In this document: positions 1,390-6,752 of the stretch, piece after piece
Layout of the letters: every line of letters begins with the position of its first letter
How positions within the stretch are numbered: position 1 is the stretch's first letter
Origin: an uncultured Alphaproteobacteria bacterium
GTDB taxonomy: Bacteria; Pseudomonadota; Alphaproteobacteria; HIMB59
DNA: 64,000 bases
Direction of reading: 5' to 3'
Assembly (NCBI GenBank): GCA_902599045.1
Contig: CACKEA010000001.1
Coordinates: forward strand, 124,001 to 188,000
The notes under the pieces: model-generated
Told to the model about the DNA's origin: nothing
The model's database searches: none
The model's input: the letters and a program-made list of their open reading frames with translations, nothing else
Made by a program: the position numbers and the translations under genes

Positions 1390-2715
1390 TTGTTTAATAC
1401 AGGAACAATTTATTCAAATTTTACACCATTGGTTAAATCGCCTGTTATAGGTTATAGAATATCGGGAGAGGATGTTTTACTAGTATTAAAGAAACTTACT
1501 AAAAGAAATTTTTCTAAAGATCATTCAATAATGAAATTAGTGGAACTTCATAATATAGATGGAACAATTTTAGACAAATGTAATGTTGTATATTTTAAAT
1601 CACCTAACTCATTCACAGGAGAGGATGTTTGCGAAATATTTATTCATGGTTCGCCCCTTATAGCCAGTCAGCTTGAGCAATTATTTAAAGACCTCAATAT
1701 ACCTGGATTAAGATTGGCTCAAAGAGGGGAGTTTTCTCTCCGCTCTGTTTTAAATAACAAATATTCCCTTAAACAGGCCAAAGCAATCAATTTAATTATA
1801 AATAATGAGTCTTTTTCCTCATTAGAATATGATAAAAAAATCCTATTTGAAGGCGACTCAGTTAGTGGTCTTGACCCTCTTAGAGAAGATATTGTAAATT
1901 TGTTTTCTGAAATCACTGCATCTATCGATTTTGTTGATGATGAAGTGTTTAATTTTAAAAAAATAATAAAAAAATCAAGGAATTTTTTTAACAATTGTAA
2001 TAAATTATTACTTAAAAATAGAACAAAAATAGAACAAAAAAATATTTGCAGAGTAATGATAATAGGACCGGTCAATGTTGGTAAATCAACCCTTTTTAAT
2101 AAAATTATCGATAAAAACAGAGCTATCGTTACTGAAATTAAGGGCACTACCAGAGATATTCTGTCAAACCAAATAATAGTCGATGGCAAAAAGTTTGAAA
2201 TATTCGATACAGCTGGTCAAAGATCTAAGCAAGGAAGGATAGAAAAATTTGGTTATAAAAAAGCACAAAAATTGTCAAAAGAAATTGATCATTTTTTTAT
2301 TTTAAAAGATAAAAAGACCAAAAATACTGATTTAAATCAATTATTTAAAGATTTTGATATTAACAAGAACTTTACACTAATAGAGACTAAATCAGATCAA
2401 TTTAGCTATAATACTAAAAATATAAAAATTAATCATAATCTAAATAGAGAAGATCTGATCAAAAGAATTAAGCTACCTCGTATTTATAACAAATATATAG
2501 ATCATAGAAATCATAAACTTGAATTTAACTCCAATGAGATAGAATTTTTAGAAAAAATATTAGAATACGAGAGAGATATTCTTAATGAAAAAGACATATT
2601 AATCATTGCTCAATTAATGAGAAATATATTAGATGATTTTTCATACGAATTTGGTTATATTAATAATGAAGATGTTTATGATAGAGTCTTTAGCAATTTT
2701 TGCATAGGAAAGTAG
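1390..2715 (+). CDS. mnmE: tRNA modification GTPase MnmE
   Basis: MnmE with MnmG makes the 5-carboxymethylaminomethyl (or taurine/glycine-derived) modification at wobble uridine 34. The 441 residues show the N-terminal folate-binding domain, a G domain with P-loop GPVNVGKST (226-234), GTTRD (252-256) and DTAGQ (273-277), and the C-terminal FCIGK with the invariant cysteine. The length matches the family (about 450). The start is TTG at 1390; a stop lies just upstream in frame at 1369 and no ATG is available. It is the first gene of the mnmE-mnmG-rsmG-parA-parB run, and one base separates its stop from the mnmG start. Confidence 0.96.
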   Translation: MFNTGTIYSNFTPLVKSPVIGYRISGEDVLLVLKKLTKRNFSKDHSIMKLVELHNIDGTILDKCNVVYFKSPNSFTGEDVCEIFIHGSPLIASQLEQLFKDLNIPGLRLAQRGEFSLRSVLNNKYSLKQAKAINLIINNESFSSLEYDKKILFEGDSVSGLDPLREDIVNLFSEITASIDFVDDEVFNFKKIIKKSRNFFNNCNKLLLKNRTKIEQKNICRVMIIGPVNVGKSTLFNKIIDKNRAIVTEIKGTTRDILSNQIIVDGKKFEIFDTAGQRSKQGRIEKFGYKKAQKLSKEIDHFFILKDKKTKNTDLNQLFKDFDINKNFTLIETKSDQFSYNTKNIKINHNLNREDLIKRIKLPRIYNKYIDHRNHKLEFNSNEIEFLEKILEYERDILNEKDILIIAQLMRNILDDFSYEFGYINNEDVYDRVFSNFCIGK

Positions 2716-2716
2716 A

Positions 2717-4573
2717 TTGTTTCACGTGGAACATTATGATGTAATAGTAATAGGTGCTGGACATGCTGGCTTAGAGGCTGCCAACGTATGTGAAAAATAT
2801 AGTTTAAAAACAGCTTTAATTACGAAAAATAAATCAGATTTGGGCAAACTATCATGTAATCCTAGTATTGGTGGGGTCGGAAAAACTCATATAGCCAGTG
2901 AGGTTGATATTTTAGGTGGGGTTATTTGTAGAATAGGAGATAAATCAGCAATTCATTATAGAGTATTAAATCTATCAAAAGGACCTGCTGTATGGGGCGT
3001 CAGAGCACAGATTGATAGAGATCTCTATGCTAAAAACATGCAAAAATACATCAAATCATCTAAAATTGAACTTATTGAAGATGAAGCAATAAATATTTTA
3101 CAAAAAAACAACAAGATTATTGGGGTTGATTGCATTAATGCAGGTAAAATCAAATCAAAAGTTGTTATTCTTACAACTGGAACCTTTCTAAATGGTAAGA
3201 TTTATTTTGGAAATGAGGTAAAAGAGGCAGGAAGAATAGGAAATAGCTCTGCCAAAGAGCTTGCAAAGTTTATCAATAAAAATTTTAAGACAATGAGACT
3301 TAAAACTGGTACTCCCCCTAGAATTTATACTCAATCCATCGATTATGATATTCTTGATCCCCAGCTATCTGAAAATAATGGAATTTTTTTATCTTATTTT
3401 ACAAAACAAAATACGAACAAAAATATTAATTGTTATATCACTAAGACAAATAATAAGACACATAAAATAATCAGAGATAATCTTGATAAATCTGCAATGT
3501 ACTCTGGTATTATCAAGTCCCAAGGAGTTCGCTATTGTCCATCGATAGAAGATAAAGTAACAAAATTTGGTGATAGAAACGGCCACAATATTTTTTTGGA
3601 ACCAGAGGGTCTTAATTCTGATCTTGTTTACCCAAACGGTATATCAAATTCGCTAGATAAGAAAATTCAATTAAAATTTCTAAGATCTATTAAAGGTTTG
3701 GAAAAATGTGAAGTAGATCAATTTGGATATGCCGTTGAATATGACTCAGTAGATCCTAGAGAATTAAAAAATAATTTTGAGACAAAAAAAATAGAAAACT
3801 TTTTTTTAGCAGGCCAAATTAATGGAACTACTGGGTATGAAGAAGCAGCAGGTCAGGGTATATATGCAGGAATCCAAACTGTTGTAAAAATAAAAAAAGT
3901 AAAATTCGATAATAAAGTTTTTGAAAGAGATAACAGCTATATTGGAGTTTTAGTTGATGATCTCACAAAGCTTGGAGTAACAGAACCATACCGTATGTTT
4001 ACATCAAGAGCAGAAAATAGATTGAAACTAAGAACAGATAATTCTTATGAAAGATTTGCTACAAACATTAATACAAAAATATTTAATAAAACTGATTACA
4101 ATCTAATTAATAAAAATATAGATAATGAAAAAAAAATAATAAAAATACTAGAGTCCTTAAAATATTCACCTAATGATTTGATGAAGAAGAAAATCAAAGT
4201 AAAAAAAGATGGTAAAATTAGAAATGGTTTTGAAGTATTAAAATTTTTAGACCCCACGACAAATAATTTTAAGAAATTTTTTAACATTACTATAAACCAA
4301 AAATTACTCACTAAAATGTATTTTGACTCAAAGTACGAAGTCTTTTATGAGCGTGAAAGGAAATCTTATGTTCAGTTAAATAAAAATAAAAATATGAATT
4401 TAACTAATATTGATTTCAATAAAATACCTTCTTTATCTCGAGAGATACTAGAAAAATTAAATAAATATAAGCCAGTAAATCTAAATGACGCAGGAAAAAT
4501 ATCTGGTATTACACCAAGCGCTCTTTTCCAAATAATAAAACATAAGAAAATAAAAGGTACTAAAGTTGCTTAA
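2717..4573 (+). CDS. mnmG: tRNA uridine 5-carboxymethylaminomethyl modification enzyme MnmG (GidA)
   Basis: FAD-binding partner of MnmE in wobble-uridine modification. The 618-residue protein starts MFHVEHYDVIVIG, with the dinucleotide-binding GAGHAG at 13-18, the conserved CNPSIGG block and the GTGYEEA block, and it has the full family length. The start codon is TTG, and the first six codons coincide with a parS site (2718-2733), which explains the FHVE residues shared by many GidA proteins. It overlaps rsmG by 8 bases, consistent with translational coupling. Confidence 0.97.
   Translation: MFHVEHYDVIVIGAGHAGLEAANVCEKYSLKTALITKNKSDLGKLSCNPSIGGVGKTHIASEVDILGGVICRIGDKSAIHYRVLNLSKGPAVWGVRAQIDRDLYAKNMQKYIKSSKIELIEDEAINILQKNNKIIGVDCINAGKIKSKVVILTTGTFLNGKIYFGNEVKEAGRIGNSSAKELAKFINKNFKTMRLKTGTPPRIYTQSIDYDILDPQLSENNGIFLSYFTKQNTNKNINCYITKTNNKTHKIIRDNLDKSAMYSGIIKSQGVRYCPSIEDKVTKFGDRNGHNIFLEPEGLNSDLVYPNGISNSLDKKIQLKFLRSIKGLEKCEVDQFGYAVEYDSVDPRELKNNFETKKIENFFLAGQINGTTGYEEAAGQGIYAGIQTVVKIKKVKFDNKVFERDNSYIGVLVDDLTKLGVTEPYRMFTSRAENRLKLRTDNSYERFATNINTKIFNKTDYNLINKNIDNEKKIIKILESLKYSPNDLMKKKIKVKKDGKIRNGFEVLKFLDPTTNNFKKFFNITINQKLLTKMYFDSKYEVFYERERKSYVQLNKNKNMNLTNIDFNKIPSLSREILEKLNKYKPVNLNDAGKISGITPSALFQIIKHKKIKGTKVA
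2718..2733 (-). promoter_or_regulatory. parS: parS centromere site inside the mnmG start
   Basis: TGTTTCACGTGGAACA, read on the opposite strand, is TGTTCCACGTGAAACA. That is the canonical bacterial parS 16-mer bound by ParB. It overlaps the TTG start and first codons of mnmG and lies about 3.2 kb from parB. I found no second copy in this window by eye. The site would load ParB clamps for chromosome segregation and implies the replication origin is not far away. Confidence 0.92.
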
Positions 4574-5171
4574 TTCCAACTTAGAAAAGTTTTGTAATGA
4601 AAATTTTAAAAATAGTAAATTAATTTTACAAAAATTATATGAATATAAGAAGATGGTCATTGACGAAAATGAAAAAATGAATTTAATTGGTAAAAGTACA
4701 ATTGATGATTTTGATCAAAGACACTTACTTGATTGCATACAAATAATTAAATATTTGCCACACAACGCAAAAACCCACATGGATATTGGCTCAGGTGCTG
4801 GACTTCCAGGGATTGTTCTTTCAATTATAGGATACAAAAACCTTCATTTAGTTGAAAAATCACCAAAAAAATCGATTTTCTTAGAAAACTGCAAATCACG
4901 ACTTGGACTTGAATATATTATTCACAACAAATCTATTACTGATTTAAAAGACCTTAACATTGATTATATTACAGCACGTGCGTTTGCACCAATTGAGAAA
5001 ATAATCTCGTTAACAAAAAAAATTATTTATAAACATACAAAGTTTATTTTACTAAAAGGTAAGTCCTATTTATCTGAATTACAACTTATCAATCAAAATA
5101 AATACTTTTGGGAAGCACACCCTAGTATCACATCTGATGTATCTAAAATTATAGTAGTAGGTTCTAAATGA
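4566..5171 (+). CDS. rsmG: 16S rRNA (guanine527-N7)-methyltransferase RsmG (GidB)
   Basis: AdoMet-dependent methyltransferase acting on G527 of 16S rRNA. The 201-residue protein carries the family block MNLIGKST...RHLLDC and the AdoMet loop DIGSGAGLPG at 73-82. The start is TTG at 4566, overlapping the mnmG stop by 8 bases; the parA ATG overlaps its stop as ATGA. It sits at the position expected in the gid-par operon. Loss of this enzyme gives low-level streptomycin resistance in other bacteria. Confidence 0.95.
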   Translation: MLNSNLEKFCNENFKNSKLILQKLYEYKKMVIDENEKMNLIGKSTIDDFDQRHLLDCIQIIKYLPHNAKTHMDIGSGAGLPGIVLSIIGYKNLHLVEKSPKKSIFLENCKSRLGLEYIIHNKSITDLKDLNIDYITARAFAPIEKIISLTKKIIYKHTKFILLKGKSYLSELQLINQNKYFWEAHPSITSDVSKIIVVGSK

Positions 5172-5932
5172 TAATTACAATTGCAAATCAAAAAGGAGGT
5201 GTTGGAAAAACAACAACTGTTGTTAACCTTGCAACAGCATTAGCCTCAATAGACAAGAAAGTTTTAATTATTGATATGGACCCACAATACAATTCTTCAA
5301 TGTCATTTAATGCTTATGACTCTAAATTATCTATTTATAGAGTTTTTAGCAATGAGGTAAATATTAGGGATGCAATACAAAAATCCCAAATTCCTCATTT
5401 AGATGTTATCTCCGCATGTGAGGATCTTGCTGCTGCAGAATATGAATTGGCTGACGATGACAACAGAAATCTTCTTTTAAAAAATTACATATCAGAGATA
5501 AAAGATAATTACGAATATATTTTCATTGATACTCCTCCAACGCTTGGATTATTAACAGTAAGTTCTTTAACAGCAAGTGATGAGGTTTTAATTCCAGTGC
5601 AATGTGAATTTTTTGCTTTAGAGGGATTATCTAAATTAATTAAAACAATTGAGTTAGTAAAAACTAATTTAAACATTAATTTGAAACTCAATGGAATAAT
5701 TTTAACCATGTATGATAGAAGAAACTCCTTATCACCATTGATTGAAAAAGAAGCAAGAGAATATTTCGATACAAATGTTTATAAATTCAATATTCCCCGA
5801 AACGTTACTTTATCCGAGGCACCGAGTCATGGCCTTCCTGCGATTATATATGATCTAAAATGTAACGGTTCACAAGCTTATATAGCATTAGCAAAAGAAT
5901 TCTTAGAGAGGAGCAACTTAAATGGCAGTTAA
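5168..5932 (+). CDS. parA: Chromosome partitioning ATPase ParA (Soj)
   Basis: ParA forms dynamic ATP-bound dimers on the nucleoid that pull ParB-parS complexes apart. The 254-residue protein has the deviant Walker A KGGVGKTT at 9-16, the IDMDPQ switch (34-39) and the FIDTPP Walker B. The length is typical for the short chromosomal Soj type without an N-terminal helix-turn-helix. ATGA overlaps the rsmG stop, and parB starts 11 bases before the parA stop, so the three genes are tightly coupled. Confidence 0.96.
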   Translation: MIITIANQKGGVGKTTTVVNLATALASIDKKVLIIDMDPQYNSSMSFNAYDSKLSIYRVFSNEVNIRDAIQKSQIPHLDVISACEDLAAAEYELADDDNRNLLLKNYISEIKDNYEYIFIDTPPTLGLLTVSSLTASDEVLIPVQCEFFALEGLSKLIKTIELVKTNLNINLKLNGIILTMYDRRNSLSPLIEKEAREYFDTNVYKFNIPRNVTLSEAPSHGLPAIIYDLKCNGSQAYIALAKEFLERSNLNGS

Positions 5933-6752
5933 TAAAAAATTAGGAAAGGGTTTATCATCTTTGTTGGGTAATAAAGAAATAATTCAAAAAATAACCCCAG
6001 ATAATAAAGGTCTTTTACTAATTCCAATTGAAAAGATTTTTAGAGATGAAACCCAGCCAAGAAAAGAATTCGATAAGAAAAAAATAAGTGAATTATCTTT
6101 GTCAATTAAGAAAAACGGTTTAATTCAGCCATTAATAGTTACAAAAAAAGAAATTGATACCTACACTTTAGTTGCCGGAGAAAGAAGATGGAGAGCTGCA
6201 CAGATTATAGATTTAAAGGTTTTACCATCACTACTTTTACCAGATGACCTTGACAAAGATGAAATATCTCTTATTGAAAATATCCAAAGGGAAGATTTGA
6301 AGATATCTGAAGAGGCAATGGCCTATCAGAGATTAATAAATAAAAATGATTATACACACGAAAAGCTTGCTAACATCGTTGGTAAAAGTAGATCACACAT
6401 ATCAAATTTATTACGTATTTTAAATCTTCACGAGTATTTCTTTGATTTGCTTAATAAAGGTAATATTTCGATGGGTCATGCAAGAGCTCTGATTGGGAAA
6501 ACACCTGACGACTTCGATGAAAATACATTAAATAAAATTATTAAAGGTAAATTTTCAGTGAGAGATCTTGAAAAAAATAAAACAAAAAAAAATACAACTG
6601 AACCAAATCTCTTACATGAGGAGAAAAATTTAAGTGATACAATTGGTTTTAAATCAAAAATAACTTATAGTTCAAAAGGGAAAGGAAATATAAAAATTTT
6701 TTATGAAAATTTAGAACAGTATAATTTTTTGATTAATAAGTTAAAAAATTAA
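5922..6752 (+). CDS. parB: Chromosome partitioning protein ParB (Spo0J)
   Basis: ParB is a CTP-dependent clamp that loads at parS and stimulates ParA. The 276-residue protein shows the N-terminal LGKGLSSLLG segment that contacts ParA, the CTP-binding region with GERRWRAA (86-93), ENIQREDL, and the helix-turn-helix (about 146-170, KLANIVGKSRSHISNLL) that reads parS. A short C-terminal dimerisation domain follows. Its 3' end overlaps the convergent gene at 6733 by 20 bases. Its likely site is the parS in mnmG. Confidence 0.96.
   Translation: MAVNKKLGKGLSSLLGNKEIIQKITPDNKGLLLIPIEKIFRDETQPRKEFDKKKISELSLSIKKNGLIQPLIVTKKEIDTYTLVAGERRWRAAQIIDLKVLPSLLLPDDLDKDEISLIENIQREDLKISEEAMAYQRLINKNDYTHEKLANIVGKSRSHISNLLRILNLHEYFFDLLNKGNISMGHARALIGKTPDDFDENTLNKIIKGKFSVRDLEKNKTKKNTTEPNLLHEEKNLSDTIGFKSKITYSSKGKGNIKIFYENLEQYNFLINKLKN

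Follow-up and report, generated by a model that had tools for sequence, protein, structure and literature searches.

In Pseudomonas aeruginosa, the palindromic sites parS1 and parS2 lie in coding DNA, within recF near the replication origin (PMC5521831). On the repABC replicons of Rhodobacterales, parS sites are likewise found within coding sequences, and the authors of that work suggest that selection keeps them there (PMC9040568). The contacts between ParB and parS have been described for Caulobacter, and the passages concerned do not mention an overlap with a start codon (PMC7383237, PMC5815017). No description of a parS overlapping the start codon of mnmG (gidA) was found among the titles and abstract openings that our literature search covered.

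The locus compared here lies in a window of 64,000 nucleotides, the whole stretch of alphaproteobacterial DNA that was analysed. Like the recF sites of P. aeruginosa, it carries a palindromic parS in coding DNA, probably near the origin; unlike them, it is a single site placed at the start of a gene rather than in the gene body, with a central GTG that is perhaps the start codon (PMC5521831). Whereas the repABC sites are located on secondary replicons, downstream of repC, the window site is chromosomal and part of an mnmG-par operon (PMC9040568). With Caulobacter it has in common the aligned ParB contact motifs GKSR, N and GHAR, and it differs in having one site only, which is known here from sequence (PMC7383237, PMC5815017). 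We regard it as likely, at a probability of roughly 85%, that a parS under selection at the DNA level overlaps the start of mnmG, and that the centre of this parS is usable as a start codon in relatives of the window genome.

The site and its operon

The 16-bp chromosomal parS consensus is TGTTYCACGTGRAACA, and the window matches it at positions 2718-2733, which read TGTTTCACGTGGAACA on the plus strand and TGTTCCACGTGAAACA on the minus strand (the palindromic feature itself is given no strand). This confirmed the canonical 16-base parS, in opposite-strand notation, from which the earlier note had started. The site lies inside a plus-strand operon from 1390 to 6752 in which, judged by their coordinates, neighbouring open reading frames overlap or nearly touch. 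It comprises mnmE (1390..2715, start uncertain, profile match), mnmG (2717..4573 if read from TTG, or from 2726 if read from GTG; TIGR00136), rsmG (4566..5171, start uncertain; TIGR00138), a parA-type ATPase gene (5168..5932, AAA_31 and ParA-type matches) and parB (5922..6752, with N-terminal, HTH and dimerisation domains). This arrangement supports the proposed setting, in which a site of the parS type is placed at the start of mnmG within an operon that also holds parA and parB. The window encodes a cognate ParA together with a ParB that has DNA-contact residues of the parS type: in the recognition helix and the GHAR motif it agrees with Caulobacter ParB at the residues contacting parS (roles from PMC7383237). 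As a side observation, the MnmE sequence (1390-2715) had strong E-values but its score reached neither of the two NCBIfam cut-offs for the family, which suggests a diverged copy.

The earlier note had proposed a genome scan for parS 16-mers. In the window genome (1,372,887 bases, 16 contigs, 94.8% complete) the window site was the sole match to TGTTTCACGTGAAACA with no more than one mismatch. One further match had two mismatches and nine had three; since a reversed control pattern gave 6 matches at up to three mismatches, these are at chance level. Under a first-order Markov model with the composition of the window, scaled to a genome of this size, TGTTYCACGTGRAACA is expected about 0.0005 times per genome. 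Among 36 genomes of the same genus, 27 held mnmG and exactly those 27 held TTYCACGTGRAA, which was absent from all nine genomes without mnmG (completeness 50-85%). A second site was found in only one genome of the genus (G024), 90 bp upstream. The window parS appears to be the sole ParB loading site in the genus, with the genomes being incomplete and a gap able to hide another.

The position relative to the origin was estimated from GC skew in 20 sampled stretches of a single-contig relative (G029, 1.41 Mb). The first stretches, as far as 280-292 kb, had negative skew. Between 325-337 kb and about 1.06 Mb the values were positive, apart from one contrary stretch at 700 kb, and from 1.12 Mb onwards they were once more negative. 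The site lies at 339.8 kb in this genome and dnaA at 442.6 kb, about 103 kb apart. Because the skew changes sign beside the site, the site is probably near the replication origin, a nearness found in this one relative and from sampled skew. Taken together, the window 16-mer is very probably the parS of the chromosome. It would act as the chromosomal ParABS centromere within the mnmE-mnmG-rsmG-parA-parB operon, near the likely origin, with ParB binding it as DNA; the loading of ParB and the centromere role are inferred.

Candidate start codons of mnmG

The mnmE stop codon TAG (2713-2715) is followed by one base and then by an in-frame TTG (2717-2719, plus strand), which opens the frame TTG TTT CAC GTG GAA CAT TAT GAT. 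The GTG at 2726-2728 on the same strand, in the centre of parS, lies in the same frame and is likewise open. Upstream, AGGA at 2706..2709 (plus strand) is a possible ribosome-binding sequence that doubles as coding DNA for the MnmE C-terminus; the glycine codon at this point has A, G or T as third base among relatives. The in-frame TTG that had been taken as the start of mnmG, with FHVE translated, is thus present, whereas its use as the real start and the translation of FHVE are uncertain, and GTG 2726 is also possible. If GTG 2726 is used in the window, F and H are not translated.

We lean slightly towards GTG 2726 as the start of the window mnmG. A start at TTG 2717, with parS lying inside coding DNA and MnmG beginning M-F-H-V-E-H, comes close to even odds. 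The AGGA sequence lies 7 nt ahead of the TTG and 16 nt ahead of the GTG, and the bases A2716 and T2717, although outside the 16-mer, were invariant too across 32 distinct sequences. The protein read from the TTG also aligns, from its first residue on, with the beginning of PDB chain 3cp2, which we take to be E. coli MnmG, and among 125 unambiguous starts in the genus TTG occurred 12 times and GTG 7 times (ATG 106). As only 32 of these 125 starts carried a Shine-Dalgarno (SD) 4-mer within 25 nt, evidence from such sequences is weak in this genus. Against the TTG, locus L041, which is 97% identical, has TCG in its place, and two deep loci of the same genus (L035, L037) have no start ahead of the central GTG; in all three loci no ATG, GTG or TTG occurs between the last in-frame stop and that GTG, which is their sole candidate. 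The upstream codon also changes readily, as 16 of 22 loci of the sister family f2 and many others show. Were the TTG the start, the site would still be a parS, and only the start-codon role of its centre would fail here.

In the sister family, the mnmE stop was directly followed by TTT CAC GTG in 22/22 loci. The central GTG was the only ATG, GTG or TTG candidate before the conserved strand in six of the 22, while an in-frame ATG occurred 2-4 codons past the GTG in 15 and an out-of-frame ATG in one; in these 16 loci mnmG could start at the ATG shortly downstream.

What we consider the best evidence that the parS centre can be a start codon comes from the order of genome G387, where the overlap occurred in 100 of 101 genomes. 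All of the 94 loci read from these 100 were in frame 0. The codon before TTT/TTC was GTG in 72, ATG in 10 and TTG in 5 of the 94, and seven had no upstream start in the stretch read. An SD sequence of at least 4 nt lay at an aligned spacing of 7 from the central GTG in 68/94 loci and at 6-9 in 78/94. The upstream codon overlaps or abuts this sequence and therefore cannot use it, so that the layout points to the central GTG. Outside the class, two loci (L267 in G698 and L271 in G697) had the site in the mnmG frame with no upstream start found.

With the parS centre as the start, the left arm of parS would separate the ribosome-binding sequence from the centre, CAC|GTG in the centre would supply the GTG start codon, and the right arm would form mnmG codons 2-3 (E-H or K-H). 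The MnmG N-terminus is poorly conserved and would tolerate this constraint on the DNA. Translation would begin either in the parS centre or three codons before it. A possible RNA hairpin at the start was also considered and rejected: the 16-mer can fold by itself (-3.4 kcal/mol), whereas the start region of 46 nt was no stabler than shuffled sequences (z -0.40).

Possible effects of ParB on the operon

A ParB clamp acting on the translation start, as had been envisaged for this locus, found no support. As ParB is a DNA-binding protein and translation proceeds on mRNA, any effect of ParB would be on transcription. Loading of ParB might in that case repress or tune transcription of the mnmG-rsmG-parA-parB operon in a feedback, which we consider unlikely. 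Such feedback would be in line with the position of the site inside the operon, about 2.4 kb ahead of parA. It would also agree with results from P. aeruginosa, where ParB at the intergenic sites parS3/parS4 lowers the expression of the neighbours, the genes beside these sites are derepressed without ParB or functional parS, and excess ParB lowers expression around parS1-4 (PMC5521831). The same comparison argues against feedback at intragenic sites, as loss of ParB or of functional parS did not derepress genes near parS1/parS2, which are of this kind (PMC5521831). It is similarly doubtful that the centromere serves translation initiation and, as a valve, regulation as well. In that case ParB loading at the start of mnmG would set the expression of the operon for ParA and ParB, and the two uses combined would have kept parS in this place across many lineages.

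Conservation of the site as DNA and its spread

The exact 16-mer was present in 43 of 44 main-clade loci, and in the remaining one (L041) just the outer base is changed, with C replacing the first T. The inner 14-mer (2719-2732) was kept in 45/45 loci, namely these 44 and locus L132 of genome G025. The 44 loci represent 32 distinct sequences over 360 bases, with some being one genome reached twice. Twenty of them came from a scan that had the N-terminal peptide among its patterns; the other 24 did not, and 24/24 loci found without this pattern carried the exact 16-mer. Downstream of the site, 91 of 96 third codon positions varied within the main clade. In sampled DNA of the genus, GTG makes up 10.7% of valine codons and CAC 24.3% of histidine codons, and the codon-usage product for TTT CAC GTG GAA is about 0.015. 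Loci with the same residues but synonymous codons breaking the 16-mer, which would speak against a constraint on the DNA, were absent from the main clade (none in 45/45).

In some relatives a second copy lies in another gene. In the sister family, all 22 of 22 loci (L105-L126) had a second 12-mer TTTCACGTGAAA inside mnmE, at a distance of 191 or 194 bp upstream of the mnmG site. Its frame differs from that of the mnmG site and reads SRERH, or SRERQ in L124. Third 12-mer sites occurred elsewhere in two genomes of this family (L130, G041:C20; L131, G038:C21). Among 31 genomes of the order of G387, two exact 16-mers were found in 25, three in two, one in two and none in two. The second site in this order lies about 1.9 kb on, inside rsmG, in a frame that reads SRET in 20/20 loci read (L281-L300). 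Two fragments were scanned; one exceeded the GidB cut-off and the other fell slightly short of it.

We conclude from these comparisons that selection is acting on the DNA of the site, since the second copies that relatives retain within mnmE or rsmG are read in a different frame. That the match is kept only for an FHVE/FHVK peptide at the MnmG N-terminus, with no function for ParB, is very improbable: FHV does recur at many MnmG N-termini, but no other synonymous codons were seen in 45/45 main-clade loci, frames 0, 1 and 2 all occur at mnmG itself, the F and H codons of the sister family follow the mnmE stop where no ATG, GTG or TTG can reach them, and the same DNA is conserved in other frames and other genes (mnmE, rsmG); peptide-level conservation as the sole cause was rejected.

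Protein and site also appear to have changed together in the sister family. In Caulobacter ParB, R173 hydrogen-bonds guanine 1 of parS and is stated to be absolutely conserved in extant ParB orthologs (PMC7383237). The arginine equivalent to R173 was missing from 20 of 22 ParB sequences of the sister family (L305-L311, L315-L329), which had S in nine, A in five, P in four, K in two and R in two. In 21/22 loci (L105-L126) neither arm of either site had guanine 1. The exception, L126 of genome G038, retains guanine 1 on the left arm and its ParB retains R; as a counter-case, genome G039 retains R173 although guanine 1 is gone. The window ParB and the four ParB sequences read from the same genus retain R, and their sites retain guanine 1. 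This pattern is consistent with an apparent co-variation of ParB and parS in the sister family.

The overlap is not special to the window genome and is widespread in other lineages. Among 385 alphaproteobacterial genomes, 28 carried the 12-mer 10-40 bases ahead of the glycine-rich motif of MnmG, and frames 0, 1 and 2 were all found in these 28. In the order of G067 the overlap was present in 21 of 32 genomes, with 15, 5 and 1 loci in frames 0, 1 and 2. Besides the 10 of 94 loci in the order of G387, an ATG lies directly before the site in 8 of these 15 frame-0 loci and in 2/2 loci of family f81, and it may be used as the start in some lineages. Of 299 genomes sampled across the phylum, 87 matched, and 66 of the 87 belonged to a single non-alphaproteobacterial family (f184). 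Since seven of the nine loci read in this family had an in-frame ATG further upstream, the site may lie within the coding region there. Across the lineages compared, the position of the site at mnmG looks more conserved than its frame.

The one exception in the order of G387, which is distant from the main clade, was genome G441 (L263). It carried a diverged site GGTTTCACGTGAAGCA in the same place at mnmG, with the synonymous codon AAG for AAA within it, and GTG was the only start near this site. About 1.9 kb on from the mnmG site the same genome has a palindrome TGCTTCACGTGAAGCA. The two together are possibly a lineage-specific parS. Further sites resembling parS, located at the start of mnmG or shortly before it, were seen in a KSB1 genome, in Mucilaginibacter and in a Cytophagales genome (L061, L069, L070, L074, L075), with two such sites in L074.

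A DNA element of chromosome segregation and the region of a translation start share one stretch of bases, an arrangement that recurs in distant bacteria. Wherever parS has this position, gene prediction may put the start of mnmG in the wrong place. The overlap is widespread rather than peculiar to one genome, and the parS centre as a start codon is the sharper and testable claim. The genus with its single parS, beside a family in which ParB and parS have drifted, would offer a natural experiment on site recognition by ParB.
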